Positions 2,403 to 21,623 of a stretch of 32,117 nt of DNA are shown piece after piece. This stretch comes from an uncultured Chitinophagaceae bacterium (GTDB lineage Bacteria > Bacteroidota > Bacteroidia > Chitinophagales > Chitinophagaceae), in contig CAIKTE010000202.1 of NCBI GenBank assembly GCA_903830285.1, positions 1 through 32,117 on the forward strand. The letters run 5' to 3'. Every line of letters begins with the position of its first letter. Position 1 is the first letter of the stretch. Position numbers and translations under genes: made by a program. The notes beneath the pieces were generated by a model, which was not told where the DNA came from, did not search any database, and saw only the letters and a list, made by a program, of their open reading frames with translations.

Positions 2403-4070
2403 ATGGCAAGTTCATTCAAGACAGAAGGCAATTTGGTAGATGTTTGGAAAAAAGAAATTTATCCAGCAGAAATAATAGTAGAAAACGGGAAAATAAAATC
2501 TATCACGCGAATCAACCATTCAACGAATTCACTATTCAACTATATTCTACCTGGTTTTGTAGACAGTCATGTACATGTTGAAAGCAGCATGCTCGTCCCA
2601 AGTGAATTTGCAAGATTGGCTGTTGTTCATGGCAGTGTAGGAAGTGTGAATGATCCGCATGAAATAGCGAATGTATGTGGATTGGAAGGTGTAGAGTTCA
2701 TGATCGAGAATGGTAAAAAAGTAAACTTCAAATTTAATTTCGGTGCGCCGAGTTGTGTACCTGCCACCATTTTTGAAACTGCTGGTGCCGCATTGAAAAG
2801 CGATGCAGTAAAAAAATTATTGGAAAAAGATGAGATCAAATATTTGAGTGAGATGATGAATTTTCCCGGCGTTTTATTCAAGGATGATGAAGTGCTGAAG
2901 AAAATAAAATATGCTCATGAACTAAATAAACCAGTTGATGGCCATGCACCGGGTTTGCGAGGAGAAGATGCAAAAAAATATATTGAAGCCGGAATTTCTA
3001 CCGACCACGAATGTTTTACTGATGCCGAAGCATTGGATAAGTTAAAATACGGCATGAAGATTTTAATTCGTGAAGGAAGTGCCGCTAAGAATTTTGAAGC
3101 ATTAATTAATTTAATGCACGAACATTATGAGAACATGATGTTTTGCAGTGACGATAAGCATCCTGATAGTTTAGCTGTGGGCCATATCAATCAACTCTGC
3201 TCAAGAGCCGTTGCAAAAGGGATTGATATTTTTAAAATATTACAAGCCGCCTGTATCAATCCGGTACTGCATTACAAATTAGATATCGGTTTGTTACGTG
3301 AAGGCGATGATGCAGATTTTATTGTGGCTGAAGATCTCATCAACTTTAAGATCAAGCAAACATATATTAATGGGGAACTGGTTGCCGAAAATGGAAAGTC
3401 ATTTATTCAGTCTGTTCCGGTAATAGCAATTAATAATTTTCATTGTGCTGAGATCACAAAAGATCAGATACAATTTTCTTTACAGCGTTGGGGACATCAT
3501 GAACAGGAAAATATTGAACAAGTGCATGTGATCGAAGCATTGGAAGGCCAGCTCATCACGAATAAATTAATTTATCCGATCACAGATTTTAATGTAGAAG
3601 ATGGATGTATATATTCCAATACTGAAAAAGACCTGTTAAAAATGGTGGTGGTGAATCGTTATTTCAATGCGCCCATTGCAAAGACATTCATCAAAAATTT
3701 TGGGTTGCAAGAGGGTGCCATCGCATCTTCTGTAGCTCACGATAGTCATAATATCGTTGCCGTTGGTGTTGATGACCTGAGTTTGACCAGAGCTATTAAT
3801 CTAGTGATACAACAAAAAGGCGGCGTAAGTGCAGTTAGCATCAACAATGAAAAAGTATTGGGCTTACCCGTTGCAGGGTTGATGAGTGCAGATGATGGTT
3901 ATAAAGTAGCAGGTGCTTACACAGCTATTGATAAAATGGTAAAACAGGAGTTGAAAAGCACATTGGTTGCACCTTTCATGACATTAAGCTTTATGGCACT
4001 CTTAGTGATACCACATTTAAAATTGAGTGATATGGGATTGTTTGATGGTGATACTTTTTCTTTTGTGTAA
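2403..4070 (+). CDS. ade: Adenine deaminase
   Basis: This cytoplasmic enzyme hydrolyses adenine to hypoxanthine and ammonia in purine salvage and belongs to the amidohydrolase superfamily. At 555 residues it has the usual family length. The metal-binding motif DSHVHVESS carries H56 and H58; [11 protein letters not shown] follows; H181 lies in GHAPGL, H202-E203 in TDHECF and D250 in [11 protein letters not shown]. All are typical of the Ade family. The C-terminal third ([12 protein letters not shown] onward, with [12 protein letters not shown]) is the conserved Ade C-terminal domain. The ATG at 2403 is the only sensible start. The CHY zinc-finger gene follows after 18 bases in the same direction. 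Together with upp, 1 kb downstream, it puts two nucleobase-salvage genes close together. Confidence 0.95.
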
Positions 4071-16982: not shown

Positions 16983-17480
16983 TTAAAACCAGCCATCTGT
17001 AGACGGTGGTTCTGAAGAAATCGATTTTCTAACTTCAATCGCAGGAATAGCATTATTGGATGCTGTATTTTTTTTAGGTTGCGGTGTTTTCTCCATGCCC
17101 GATATCCTTGGCTTTTCTTCCAATGGTTTATACCGATTCTTGGTCATTGAGCCTTCAATAACAGCTCCTTCTTCAATTTCCAGTGTGGTTGCTATAATAC
17201 CGCCTTTGATCACTGCATTATTACATATAACCGCTTTGGTCTTACATTCTATATTTCCTTCCACACGGCCATATACGATTAAATGTACTGCAGTGATATC
17301 TCCATTGATCACGGCTTCTTCCCCAATCACGAGTTTAGATTCGACATTGATATTACCGGCCACATTTCCATCAATGCGTCCCGGTATTTTAGATTCAATA
17401 TCGCCTTGTATCAAAATGCCCTTTGGTAAGAGAAAACTGTCGTGGGGCTTGTTTCCAATAAGTTGGTTTAACTTAAACAC
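16983..17480 (-). CDS. Bactofilin (polymer-forming cytoskeletal protein), GTG start
   Basis: Bactofilins are right-handed beta-helical proteins that polymerise without nucleotide and scaffold cell-shape or envelope machinery. The 165 residues contain the regular ILIQGDIESKIPGRIDGNVAGNINVESKLVIGEEAVINGDITAVHLIVYGRVEGNIECKTKAVI core (about 22-115), flanked by short disordered tails, the C-terminal one Pro/Ser/Lys-rich. The start is GTG at 17480; an in-frame stop lies just upstream (17493-17495), and no ATG is available. It begins 21 bases after the stop of the actin-like gene on the same strand, so the two are almost certainly co-transcribed. Confidence 0.92.
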   Translation of the reverse strand: MFKLNQLIGNKPHDSFLLPKGILIQGDIESKIPGRIDGNVAGNINVESKLVIGEEAVINGDITAVHLIVYGRVEGNIECKTKAVICNNAVIKGGIIATTLEIEEGAVIEGSMTKNRYKPLEEKPRISGMEKTPQPKKNTASNNAIPAIEVRKSISSEPPSTDGWF

Positions 17481-17501: not shown

Positions 17502-18539
17502 TTATCTTTTTTCATTCTCGAAGGTAGATACAATGGTAGTTGCATTACCTAAGTCAATACCAATTGCGCTTTCAAATTTTTCATCAGAAATTCTGAGTGA
17601 ATTATATAAATAACCAATGCTTGCCAATTTATCAGCATCAGGTGCAATTTCAACCGGCATCACATCTTTAAATTCTTCCTGGAATGCTTCCTGCAGTTCA
17701 GTGTAAAATGCTCCTCCTCCTAATAAATAGATCTTTTCACAATTTTCAAAATCAGAATCTGTAAAATATCTCTTGAATAATGGAGAGATGATCTCTTTAT
17801 AATACTGGTGCAAGATCTCTTTACGTAATTGTTTGAGATCGATATTTTTCCTGTTGATGAAGATGAAGCCTTTTACGAATGCATCATCCAACTGATGTTC
17901 GTTCTTCATTTCCAGATAATATTTTTTATTCAATTCCCTTGTCAGGTTATTGATCGCATAACGTAATCCATGAGAACTGAATACAGTACGCTGTACCAAT
18001 CCATCCGCAGTTGCCATTGCACCTTCAATGGTTCCGAATCCAAGACTGATCGCTATAAAACTCTTTGGTTGCTGAGGGCCTAATACTTTTTTCAAACCAA
18101 TGATACCACCCACGATTTCAGGGATCACGTCAAATCTTTCAATATCAAATAATGCTTTTTTAACCGCACCTCTGTTATGAAAGGTTTGTGTATCATATTC
18201 CACTAAAAAGTTCTTTCTAGCCAAGAAACGTTCGGCAGCTTCTTTATAAACATTATATGTAGAAAAAGGAAAACCAACTGTAACAAACATAGGTTGCTGA
18301 ATGGTTTCTGCAACGGTGATCAATGCCGCTTTAAACAACACTTCATAATCTTCTTCCTGAGGAGAAGCATTCACTACTTTATTCGGATTGATGCCTCCTC
18401 TTTTAGCAAGATTACCTGCCAAATACCAGATGCTTTCATTCTTGATCTTTAACCCGTTTAATAAATCCCTTGAAGAGTTTTCTGTATTGCCAAATGCTGA
18501 TTCAAAAACACTCGGAAAAGTAATAGTTGATACTTTCAT
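17502..18539 (-). CDS. Actin/ParM-like fold protein with circularly permuted motif order
   Basis: The 345-residue protein carries ASKHA-fold motifs, but in rotated order. It opens with TITFPSVFESAFG (5-17) and IWYLAGNLAKRGG (37-49), which in archaeal/ParM-like actins follow the phosphate-1 loop. Next come a phosphate-2-like segment FIAISLGFGTIEGA (161-174), an adenosine-type motif KIYLLGGGAFYTEL and a connect-2-like helix KLASIGYLYNSL. The protein ends with SAIGIDLGNATTIVSTFENEKR, whose GIDLGNATT (327-335) is a phosphate-1 loop that normally lies at the N-terminus. Joining the end to the beginning restores standard order. An in-frame TAA ten bases before the ATG rules out a missed N-terminus. 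S165 replaces the usual Asp of phosphate 2. The gene precedes the bactofilin gene by 21 bases. Polymer formation and nucleotide binding are inferences. Confidence 0.75.
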   Translation of the reverse strand: MKVSTITFPSVFESAFGNTENSSRDLLNGLKIKNESIWYLAGNLAKRGGINPNKVVNASPQEEDYEVLFKAALITVAETIQQPMFVTVGFPFSTYNVYKEAAERFLARKNFLVEYDTQTFHNRGAVKKALFDIERFDVIPEIVGGIIGLKKVLGPQQPKSFIAISLGFGTIEGAMATADGLVQRTVFSSHGLRYAINNLTRELNKKYYLEMKNEHQLDDAFVKGFIFINRKNIDLKQLRKEILHQYYKEIISPLFKRYFTDSDFENCEKIYLLGGGAFYTELQEAFQEEFKDVMPVEIAPDADKLASIGYLYNSLRISDEKFESAIGIDLGNATTIVSTFENEKR

Positions 18540-18621: not shown

Positions 18622-19824
18622 TTACGTTCCCAAATCGAGTACAGCAAGACTTTCAGCTATTATTCGGCAAATATCAGCTAATTCATTTTCTTTCGTAATC
18701 AAAGGAGGGGCAATCCGCATGCAATTAGGGGCAAATAAAAACCAATCTGTGATCAATCCTTTGGCGATACATTGCCGAATTACGGCATGATTGGTTTCAA
18801 ATGAATCAAATTCGATCGCCATCCATAATCCTGCCGACCGTATCGCTTTTATTGTAGAGTGATGGATCTGCTGCAATAAGAACTGCTCTTTCGCTTTTAC
18901 AGATGCAATACAATTTTCTTCCAATAGAACCTCCAAAGCCGCTTTACCTGCCGCACAGGAAACCGGATGCCCGCCAAATGTGGTGATGTGGCCAAGCACA
19001 GGATCATGGGTTAAACAGTCCATTAATTTTTTATCGGCAACAAAGGCGCCGAGCGGCATTCCGCCACCTAATGCTTTACCTAATAATAAAATATCGGGAA
19101 CAATATCAAACTGCTCAAATGCCCATAAACTACCCGTTCTGCCAAAACCTGCCTGAATTTCATCCAATATCAACAGAACACAATTATCATCACATTTTTT
19201 TCTGATGGCTTGTAACCATTCTTTTGAGGGCTTATTAATTCCGGCCTCTGCCTGCACAGTTTCAGCAATTACACAACAGGTATTTTTATCAATAAATTCA
19301 ATGGCTTCATTGCTACCATAATCGAAATGATGCACATCGGGCAATAGGGGACGAAAAGCATTTCGCCAATACTCATCTCCCATCACACTTAATGCGCCTT
19401 GTGTACTGCCATGATAAGATCTGTTGAATGAAATGATCTTTGTTCGATTTGTAACTCTCTTTGCAAGTTTCATCGCTCCTTCTGTTGCTTCAGTTCCACT
19501 GTTTGTGAAATAAACAGAATTGAGAGAAGAGGGAAGGTGATCTGTCAATAGTTTGGCATAAATCACTTGCGGTTGCTCAATAAATTCTCCATAAACGATC
19601 AAATGCATATACTGTGCGGCTTGCATTTGAACTGCTTCAACAACTTTAGGGTGACTATGCCCGATATTAGCAACACTAAACCCTGAAATAGCATCAATGT
19701 ATTTTTTACCGTTTACATCATACAAATAAATACCATCAGCCTTCACCATTTCGATTCCAATTGGTGCCGGCGATGTTTGTGCAACATGGCTCAAAAAAAG
19801 TTGTCTGTTAGAAATTCCACTCAT
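18622..19824 (-). CDS. Class III PLP-dependent aminotransferase
   Basis: The 400-residue protein is a fold-type I, class III aminotransferase (ornithine/acetylornithine/4-aminobutyrate group). Signatures include KYIDAISGFSVANIGHSHPKV at the N-terminus and YFTNSGTEATEGAMKLAKR for phosphate binding. SYHGSTQGALSVMG, VIAETVQAEAGI and LLILDEIQAGFGRTGSLWAFEQF (the Asp that pairs with the PLP ring nitrogen) follow, and LLLGKALGGGMPLGAFVA contains the Schiff-base Lys. The substrate cannot be assigned: no arginine or lysine pathway gene is adjacent. It lies 82 bases upstream of the actin-like gene on the same strand, a gap large enough for a separate promoter. It is divergent from the gamma-carbonic-anhydrase gene. 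Confidence 0.93.
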   Translation of the reverse strand: MSGISNRQLFLSHVAQTSPAPIGIEMVKADGIYLYDVNGKKYIDAISGFSVANIGHSHPKVVEAVQMQAAQYMHLIVYGEFIEQPQVIYAKLLTDHLPSSLNSVYFTNSGTEATEGAMKLAKRVTNRTKIISFNRSYHGSTQGALSVMGDEYWRNAFRPLLPDVHHFDYGSNEAIEFIDKNTCCVIAETVQAEAGINKPSKEWLQAIRKKCDDNCVLLILDEIQAGFGRTGSLWAFEQFDIVPDILLLGKALGGGMPLGAFVADKKLMDCLTHDPVLGHITTFGGHPVSCAAGKAALEVLLEENCIASVKAKEQFLLQQIHHSTIKAIRSAGLWMAIEFDSFETNHAVIRQCIAKGLITDWFLFAPNCMRIAPPLITKENELADICRIIAESLAVLDLGT

Positions 19825-19847
19825 TTATTTCTATTGCTCGATTTAAT

Positions 19848-19873
19848 GTTCGAAATTCGAAATTCGAACTTCG
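19848..19873. repeat. TTCGAAA heptanucleotide micro-repeat in a divergent promoter region
   Basis: Consecutive seven-base units TTCGAAA, TTCGAAA and TTCGAAC, then TTCGTCT, begin at 19849. Preceded by G, they form a near-palindrome from GTTCGAA to TTCGAAC (19848-19869). The cluster fills most of the 56-bp gap between the aminotransferase and gamma-carbonic-anhydrase starts. It may be an operator or simply one of the window's seven-base micro-repeats. Confidence 0.6.
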
Positions 19874-19880
19874 TCTTTTT

Positions 19881-20411
19881 ATGGCAACTATACTTACAGT
19901 TCTTGGTAAACATCCTCAGTTTGGTGAAAAATGTTTTGTAGCTCCCAATGCAACCATTGTAGGTGATGTAGTGATGGGCGAACATTGCAGTATCTGGTTC
20001 AATGCAGTTATCAGAGGCGATGTGAACTATATAAAAATCGGCAATAAAGTGAATGTACAGGACGGGGCTGTGATTCATTGCACTTTTGAAAAGAATCCTA
20101 CCAATATTGGCAACAATGTATCTATCGGACATAATGCTTTGGTACACGGATGTACCATTCATGATAATGTTTTGATCGGTATGGGTTCTATTGTGATGGA
20201 TCGGTGCGAGGTATTCAGCAACTCGATAGTGGCAGCCGGCTCTGTTGTGTTGGAAGGCACCATCATTGAATCCGGAAGTATTTATGCGGGTATCCCTGCA
20301 AAAAAGGTTAAAGAAATGCCACTAGATACTGTACACGGAGAAATTGACCGTATCGCTAATAATTATCTTAAATATTCTACCTGGTTTGAAGAACATAATG
20401 ATGCACCATAA
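19881..20411 (+). CDS. Gamma-carbonic anhydrase family protein (left-handed beta-helix)
   Basis: The 176 residues form hexapeptide repeats of the left-handed beta-helix (ATIVGDVVMGEHCSIWFNAVIRGDVNYIKIG, then NIGNNVSIGHNALVHGCTIHDNVLIGMGSIVMD), followed by a C-terminal helix. H66 (AVIHCTF), H84 (SIGHNA) and H89 (LVHGC) reproduce the three zinc/iron ligands of gamma-carbonic anhydrases, including the five-residue spacing of the second pair. Family members (YrdA/PaaY/CaiE-like) include real carbonic anhydrases and proteins with no proven activity, so CO2 hydration is likely but not certain. A small lipoprotein gene follows 37 bases downstream. Confidence 0.92.
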   Translation: MATILTVLGKHPQFGEKCFVAPNATIVGDVVMGEHCSIWFNAVIRGDVNYIKIGNKVNVQDGAVIHCTFEKNPTNIGNNVSIGHNALVHGCTIHDNVLIGMGSIVMDRCEVFSNSIVAAGSVVLEGTIIESGSIYAGIPAKKVKEMPLDTVHGEIDRIANNYLKYSTWFEEHNDAP

Positions 20412-20448: not shown

Positions 20449-20697
20449 ATGAAAAAAACGGGTACCGTTATAATAGCTTCTTTGGTCTTTAGTTCCTGTG
20501 GTATATTCAAGAAGACCAGTCAAAACGGCTGCCCTCCATCCGCTAAAAATTTGGGTGCAGAAAAAATATTGATGTATCAACAGGATGGATATACACCAAA
20601 GACAGCCAAAGAGAAAAAAGAGTATGAATTGGCAAAAAAAGAATTGAAAAGTAATAATAAACCTATCGTAAAAGAGGCTGTAAATACCAAAGACTAA
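20449..20697 (+). CDS. Short lipoprotein of unknown function
   Basis: MKKTGTVIIASLVFSSCGIFKK is a lipoprotein signal with lipobox FSSC. The mature part (about 65 residues) starts with GCPPSAKNLGAEKIL and ends in a charged helix (AKEKKEYELAKKELKSNNKP). I recognise no domain. The translation is gene-like rather than a shadow because of the clean lipobox. Its TAA stop (20695-20697) overlaps the TAG of the convergent rsgA within the four bases CTAA. Confidence 0.75.
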   Translation: MKKTGTVIIASLVFSSCGIFKKTSQNGCPPSAKNLGAEKILMYQQDGYTPKTAKEKKEYELAKKELKSNNKPIVKEAVNTKD

Positions 20698-21623
20698 CTC
20701 CAACTATTTTCTTCCATTGTTTCCATAATAGTAAGATAACTGATATAACGTTCTTCCGAAATAGTTCCTGCATTTACCGCTGCTTTCACGGCACAACCGG
20801 GTTCATTATAATGTTTGCAATTATTGAATTGACAATCATTTACCAACTTTCTCATCTCAGGAAAATAACCACTTAGCTCCTCTTTCTTCAGATCAACCAA
20901 ACCCAGTTCTCTGATACCGGGCGTATCAATGATCTTACCTCCAAAGGGAAGATCGAACATTTCAGCAAATGTGGTGCTGTGCATTCCTTTGCCGCTCCAA
21001 CCACTTACTTCAAGGATCTTTAAATCCAATTCCGGAAAAATATTATTGATCAAAGTTGATTTTCCCACACCGCTATGCCCGCTCAGTAATGTCGTTTTGT
21101 CTTTCAATAACTCTTTTACTTCTTCCATGCCCTGATGCTGTATAACACTTGCCAGTACTACTTTGTAACCGACTGCTTCATAAATAGATTTGAGCAATTC
21201 AAACTTTTCATTTTCTTTCTTTTTATAAATATCTGCTTTATTAAAAACGATGATAGCTGGCACATGATACATCTCACAAGCCACTAAAAAACGATCAATG
21301 AATCCTTGAGATGTTTTAGGATCTTTCAATGTGGCAAATAAAATACTCTGGTCTAAATTGGATGCAACAATATGATGATGGTGTTTATTATGCGGACTAA
21401 CTCTTGCCACATAATTTCTTCTATCTAATATTTCTGAAATGGTAGCAGTATTCTCCAACTCATTCTCCAGTTCCATTTCCACTTCATCACCAACAGCAAT
21501 AGGGTTCGTAGAAGTAATGCCATCGATCTTCAGCACACCTTTAATACGGGCATTGAAAAGCCTGCCATCATTGGCTTTCACTACATACCAACTGCCGGTA
21601 GATTTATATACAAGTCCATTCAT
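20694..21623 (-). CDS. rsgA: Ribosome small-subunit-dependent GTPase RsgA
   Basis: RsgA checks late 30S-subunit maturation. The 309 residues show an N-terminal OB-fold (about 1-70) and then a circularly permuted GTPase domain: G4 (VFNKAD) precedes G1 (GHSGVGKST), followed by a switch region (GKGMHSTTFAEMF) and G3 (DTPGIRELGL). The C-terminal zinc module C-x4-C-x-H-x5-C is visible in DCQFNNCKHYNEPGCAV. The permuted order is normal for this family. The gene lies downstream of batA on the same strand, but a 234-bp repeat-bearing gap separates them, so they are probably transcribed independently. Confidence 0.96.
   Translation of the reverse strand: MNGLVYKSTGSWYVVKANDGRLFNARIKGVLKIDGITSTNPIAVGDEVEMELENELENTATISEILDRRNYVARVSPHNKHHHHIVASNLDQSILFATLKDPKTSQGFIDRFLVACEMYHVPAIIVFNKADIYKKKENEKFELLKSIYEAVGYKVVLASVIQHQGMEEVKELLKDKTTLLSGHSGVGKSTLINNIFPELDLKILEVSGWSGKGMHSTTFAEMFDLPFGGKIIDTPGIRELGLVDLKKEELSGYFPEMRKLVNDCQFNNCKHYNEPGCAVKAAVNAGTISEERYISYLTIMETMEENSWS

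Follow-up and report, generated by a model that had tools for sequence, protein, structure and literature searches.

An open reading frame in the window, which is the whole stretch of DNA analysed here (32,117 nucleotides), very probably encodes an actin of the ALP/ParM type whose motifs stand in a circularly permuted order; this is judged from the sequence, and the completion of the fold is inferred in the absence of a usable structure. The best explanation overall, which we regard as likely, is that the product is a permuted actin-fold ATPase of this type that works with the bactofilin encoded downstream of it. An earlier, sequence-only reading of this DNA had proposed the permutation; the recurrent two-gene unit with a divergent bactofilin goes beyond it and is new here. 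In actins, HSP70s and sugar kinases, motif order is generally assumed not to vary. A permutation that occurs naturally and is conserved would show that the fold tolerates new ends within domain I, and would offer both a test of how the actin core folds and a means of tagging actins at new ends.

The gene and the layout of its motifs

The gene had been placed at 17502-18539, and we recover there a frame of 345 aa on the minus strand; in the same frame, the plus strand of this interval is interrupted by stops. Its features are as follows.

17502-18539, minus strand: putative circularly permuted actin-like protein, 345 aa (ORF translation, family alignment, rotation tests)
18507-18518, minus strand: FPSV, residues 8-11, aligned to FPS of ordinary ALPs
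18117-18119, minus strand: E141, invariant (E in 24 of 24 members; Q in 11 of 11 ordinary ALPs)
18024-18050, minus strand: phosphate-2 loop ISLGFGTIE, residues 164-172, first Asp replaced by Ser
17709-17723, minus strand: adenosine motif LGGGA, residues 273-277, with G274-G276 invariant in 24 of 24 members
17520-17567, minus strand: C-terminal phosphate-1 hairpin, residues 325-340, with GIDLGNATT inside it at 17535-17561

The protein starts with the residues MKVSTITFPSV. The motifs named in the sequence-only reading lie where it had put them, with MKVSTITFPSVFESAFG at the protein start, YLAGNLA at residues 39-45 and GIDLGNATT near the C terminus, at residues 327-335 of 345. By alignment, FPSV opens the segment which in ordinary ALPs comes after the phosphate-1 hairpin and which is N-terminal here. 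Residues 2-7 of the family members align with positions 17-21 of the ALP_N profile, and the C-terminal hairpin aligns to the N terminus of ordinary ALPs and, weakly, to that of HSP70. Strands 1 and 2, the phosphate-1 hairpin, appear to have been shifted from the N to the C terminus, so that the chain would start at strand 3.

Such an order could also arise from a mis-called gene, if an upstream part carrying phosphate-1 were reached by another start or a frameshift. The earlier argument against a mis-called start, a stop upstream of the ATG, holds: an in-frame TAA begins nine bases before the ATG of the window gene, which leaves two sense codons between them. Moreover, when up to 400 bases upstream were read in all frames, none of 31 full-length family members showed a second phosphate-1 motif of the pattern used, so that nothing favours a tandem duplication either. 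We therefore give practically no credence to a mis-called gene, for which only the ATA that replaces the ATG in a 99% identical homologue (L002) can be cited; frameshift, upstream start and tandem duplication are all unsupported by the upstream sequence of the 31 members, 30 of which start with ATG. The ATA of L002 lies at 4001-4003, and more than 25 codons pass before a usual start codon is reached; L033 is the same genome, judged by contig number and sequence. The ATA may represent a sequencing error, an unusual start or a dead gene.

Elsewhere in the window, a minus-strand ORF of 113 aa (19821-20162) overlaps a plus-strand ORF of 176 aa (19881-20411), the product of which resembles, by eye, a protein of the gamma carbonic anhydrase type.

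Conservation of the motif order in Bacteroidota

A search with the window protein gave matches in 24 of 395 Bacteroidota genomes (E up to 0.001), one of which, a weak match of 100 residues (L030 in G031), was excluded from membership. When a profile of 24 members was used instead, 24 of the 395 genomes were again matched, and here a fragment of 47 residues at a contig end (G336) was not counted. Full-length copies are present in 23 of the 395 genomes, two of which carry two each, and all 25 copies, the window's own included, were observed to keep the permuted arrangement, which argues against chance. The other copies among these are 36-44% identical to the window protein. Nine of 147 genomes of the window's own family match, and the distribution as a whole is patchy, over several families, most of them outside the window's class; the carriers include Chitinophaga sp. 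sic0106 and CB10, and members are located on contigs of up to 4.2 Mb.

Whether homologues conserve the order was a check suggested by the sequence-only reading. All 31 full-length members share this order, as do five additional members that were recognized among eight more loci inspected. All of the 31 carry a single G-x-D-x-G-N motif, near the C-terminal end, and start four to seven residues ahead of the PS(V/I) motif. In the family alignment, which comprises 24 of the 31 members (seven near-copies were left out), G327, D329, G331 and N332 do not vary in any of the 24, and position 335 is occupied by T in 22 members and by S in two. Where estimates are possible, both the gene and the hairpin are under purifying selection: of eight chosen pairs, four had an estimable dS and gave a whole-gene dN/dS of 0.02-0.10, and in four pairs the 18 codons of the hairpin gave 0.04-0.08, although numbers are small in both cases. 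The linker ahead of the hairpin is less constrained, one pair giving a ratio near 1 on the basis of four changes.

Outside these genomes, no relative was found among 62 stretches of viral contigs that matched a pattern, and the phages gave no match. Among 72,556 plasmid records there was no close relative, only two distant ordinary hits (best 23.5% identity); a ParM system for plasmid segregation, as judged by plasmid location, is thus not supported. Since patterns made from single sequences find close relatives only, an absence outside Bacteroidota is not shown.

Rotation and profile comparisons

For rotation, the C-terminal tail was moved to the front, and ten of the 31 members were used in the ALP_N and PDB scans. 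In the native order, Pfam ALP_N matches eight of the ten, starting at profile position 17-21. Whether rotation raises the score against actin-like N-terminal families had been suggested as a check, and for ALP_N it does: nine of the ten are then matched, all from position 1, with a gain of 2.7-9.8 bits for the eight members matched in both orders, and the cut-off of 26.3 bits is exceeded by eight members before and nine after rotation. Two ordinary relatives that were scanned are matched from position 1. For the window protein itself, ALP_N gives no match before or after rotation (E up to 1); its MreB-like_C match rises from 27.0 bits to 28.5 (cut-off 27.8). At E up to 1, ALP_N matches 18 and MreB-like_C 23 of 24 members. 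All nine ALP_N matches in 247 Bacteroidota genomes belong to the permuted family and begin at profile position 16-21. Such a truncated match is the visible clue to the permutation, and domain annotation can hide permuted cases of this kind.

A comparison model built from 11 ordinary ALPs of plasmids and phages scored the window protein at 39.2 bits in the native order and at 47.6 bits on rotation. When members were doubled, the best alignment crossed the C-to-N junction in 26 of 30, entering at residue 318-326, whereas none of the 11 ordinary ALPs crossed its own junction by more than two residues; the four exceptions (L005, L006, L008 and L027) all have long tails after the hairpin. In 14 of the 30 members, the rotated score was compared with 100 shuffles of the tail each and beat all of them in ten; it was reached by one shuffle in L015, one in L029, 17 in L008 and 69 in L027, while L005 and L006 were not part of this comparison. 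The gain on rotation is small beside what the hairpin contributes (25-41 bits) in the ordinary proteins used to build the model. Profile-profile alignment (13 of the 30 members) extended from 297 columns starting at template position 30 (E 4e-22) in the native order to 318 columns starting at position 6 (E 1e-23) after rotation, and PDB sequence hits at E up to 0.1 increased from seven to 15, a modest improvement with the best hit nearly unchanged.

These comparisons also bear on the idea that the C-terminal motif is a chance decoy and the protein an actin relative without a phosphate-1 loop. Although the long-tailed L008 and L027, which gain little on rotation and resemble their tail shuffles, would fit a decoy, we consider it very unlikely in view of the G-D-G-N residues shared by 24 of 24 members, the low dN/dS of the hairpin, the match to ALP_N positions 1-17 in nine of ten rotated members and a gain unmatched by any shuffle in ten of 14.

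In a tree built from 29 permuted proteins and 11 ordinary ones, a single branch (support 100/100), with a long stem, separates the two sets, and no intermediate between the ordinary and the permuted form was found. From this two-sided tree we infer that the permutation probably arose in a single event before the sampled members diverged. L002 was left out of the junction, shuffle, profile-profile and tree analyses, and L004 also of the tree.

Predicted active site and closure of the fold

The 11 ordinary ALPs differ from the permuted family in that each has an N-terminal phosphate-1 motif, an Asp at phosphate-2 and a Gln before it (11 of 11 in each case, the two residues being read by eye). 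At the position of the first phosphate-2 Asp, the 24 members have S in 22 cases and N and G in one each. Both positions, the phosphate-2 Asp and the preceding Gln, bear on hydrolysis in ParM and actin. Because they are Ser and Glu here, ATP hydrolysis is probably slow, which is a guess by inference, as ATP binding itself is inferred.

AlphaFold run on six close sequences, a shallow alignment, gave a pLDDT of only 35.7. That the hairpin completes the nucleotide site in three dimensions is therefore an inference from homology. The low-confidence model contains strands at 325-330 and 334-340, which we take as no more than a hint of secondary structure. In ordinary actins, both termini sit near each other in domain I. 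For this reason the C-terminal hairpin would most likely fold back in cis and rebuild the same nucleotide site. A hairpin at the end of a permuted chain is also what donor-strand exchange would need, and it could instead act in trans, completing the nucleotide site of the next subunit so that assembly proceeds by strand swapping. In the alignments, a linker of about ten residues leads from the last matched segment to the hairpin. Its length can be read in favour of strand swapping, but a short linker together with neighbouring termini favours closure in cis, and no assembly data exist; we hold closure in trans to be improbable. Polymerisation, in either arrangement, is likewise an inference.

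Linkage to a bactofilin gene

The gene that had been noted 21 bases past the stop of the actin-like gene indeed starts there, with a GTG at 17480, and encodes a bactofilin; the two probably form one operon.

16983-17480, minus strand: bactofilin, 165 aa (PF04519, E 2.6e-24, 85.8 bits; cut-off 27.9)
16986-16991, minus strand: C-terminal Trp-Phe of the bactofilin, proposed docking peptide

We observed a bactofilin gene downstream on the same strand in 21 of 25 loci, or in 20 of 24 without the duplicate genome (L007 and L057 are one genome). It is the immediate next gene in 18 of the 24; one gene intervenes in L052 and L053, encoding a TPR protein in L053. The linkage covers seven family-level lineages, between which the other neighbouring genes differ. 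Not included in these 25 loci are the actin loci of G013, G131, G112, G123, G151, G199, G203, G224 and G274 and the second copies of G147 and G195; those of G013, G131, G123, G203 and G274 and the second copies were covered by the bactofilin search instead. G147 and G195, which belong to one genus, each carry two copies of the actin-bactofilin pair (L049, L050, L159 and L168). Three genome groups have the actin without the special bactofilin (f19, genus g96 of f24 and two of f17), and in the lineages without a linked copy, G171, G368, G034, G119, G013, G131 and G203 have one bactofilin each, away from the actin. The window's genome has two bactofilins and one close MreB.

The gene order in L053 is M23 peptidase (PF01551), permuted actin, TPR protein and bactofilin, followed by genes that resemble an ATP synthase operon by eye; L052 has the same gene clusters in the same order, without a Pfam basis.

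The C-terminal end of the linked bactofilins

A terminal W or F was observed in 22 of 24 linked bactofilins compared with three of 57 unlinked ones (Fisher's exact p 1.5e-14, not corrected for relatedness). The linked set comprises 20 loci from the neighbourhood comparison and four more, with L057 dropped. Its two exceptions are L052 and L053, the bactofilins of which group with ordinary ones in a weak tree; the three unlinked cases are the second copy of the window's genome, a copy from the same genus and L139. For the unlinked set, the 30 best-scoring matches were taken first, which biased it towards ordinary bactofilins, and the nine remaining were added later, changing the count from two of 48 to three of 57. 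One sequence of this set is cut off by the contig edge, so that its end is unseen, and was counted as non-aromatic. In 18 actin-bearing genomes of other families, the aromatic end is found in 11 of 13 linked and one of 17 unlinked bactofilins. A tree of the bactofilin core places 44 of 48 unlinked copies in one clade (SH-aLRT 95) and the linked ones outside it, mostly on long branches; this tree is poorly resolved and lacks the nine later additions.

The second bactofilin of the window's genome (G000:C162:21594-21875, L106) ends in GWF, has no actin gene adjacent and groups with the actin-linked kind in the core tree. A bactofilin of the same genus (G413:C57:21283-21567, L170) also ends in GWF without an adjacent actin gene.

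The permuted actin may be real and the bactofilin a mere neighbour in the operon, its aromatic end binding another envelope protein and the actin serving a separate purpose, for instance positioning or the segregation of DNA. Several lineages have retained the actin but not the special bactofilin, bactofilins with a WF end are encoded apart from the actin gene in the window's genome and in another genome of its genus, and no column of the actin alignment was found to track the presence of the special bactofilin in 24 members, so that no partner-specific residues and no docking site are visible on the actin. Mere adjacency would nevertheless have to account for a linkage that persists in 20 of 24 loci across seven family-level lineages while other neighbours change, and for the fact that, in genomes of other lineages with the actin, 16 of the 17 unlinked bactofilins lack the tail. 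We find it unlikely without dismissing it, and favour the view, which we regard as likely, that the actin-like protein and the bactofilin are functional partners.

How the two proteins would interact is inferred. The tail of ParR docks on ParM, and by likeness to this pair the terminal aromatic signature suggests a docking peptide: contact would probably be made through the C-terminal aromatic residue or residues of the bactofilin, as a short peptide docking on the actin-like protein. There are no binding data, and docking through this tail could be right but is not something that we would rely on. Bactofilins are described in the accessible part of PMC12448750 as assembling without nucleotide; with an actin-like partner, the system would gain a nucleotide-dependent switch or else a second filament. 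That the nucleotide state of the permuted actin controls a dedicated bactofilin scaffold through the C-terminal aromatic tail is a tentative proposal, which may well fail. If true, such a composite cytoskeleton would provide, as far as the literature was searched, the first case of a bactofilin under nucleotide control and of an actin fold permuted in nature. In a search that left out preprints and most subscription journals, we found neither a permuted actin nor the pairing of an actin-like gene with a bactofilin described before, and in the available part of PMC7203096 a term search found nothing relevant. How bactofilin assembly is regulated is an open question, and a two-gene unit with a short tail signature makes it testable in Chitinophaga.

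Comparison with known systems

One of the closest likenesses is to the PRTRC system protein D and ParM/StbA ALPs of plasmids and phages (ALP_N PF17989 with MreB-like_C PF21522). Once rotated, the permuted protein aligns with them over its entire length, at 18% identity over 318 profile columns, and the motif order is the same apart from the cut. The best solved relative by sequence is Dh-cParM1 (PDB 8x1i), with an E of only 2e-4 to 4e-4; the match covers the part after phosphate-1, and the phosphate-1 part lies outside it. In HSP70/BiP and the ASKHA superfamily, the phosphate-1, phosphate-2 and adenosine stretches are matched together, each of them weak alone, but the native profile of the permuted family has them in the order 2-3-1; its C terminus matches the N terminus of BiP, in a stretch that is not significant alone. 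MreB matches the C-terminal stretch of the permuted actin weakly. An identity as MreB was rejected (PF06723, 13.5 bits against a cut-off of 27), and the genome's own MreB is recognized at E 1.5e-122.

The operons of bactofilin and the M23 peptidase LmdC described in PMC10945521, as far as the accessible part of that paper goes, resemble the present unit in that a bactofilin has a conserved gene partner, and differ from it in the nature of the partner, here an actin-like protein. In L053 an M23 gene is found upstream of the actin gene, and L052 has a homologue of it; the other loci were outside the search for M23. The RsgA gene reported near the actin is present, at 20694-21623 by Pfam. GTPases of the RsgA type are circularly permuted and have kept their function with a changed order of motifs. 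They have the P-loop GTPase fold, whereas the fold of the permuted protein described here would be that of actin.
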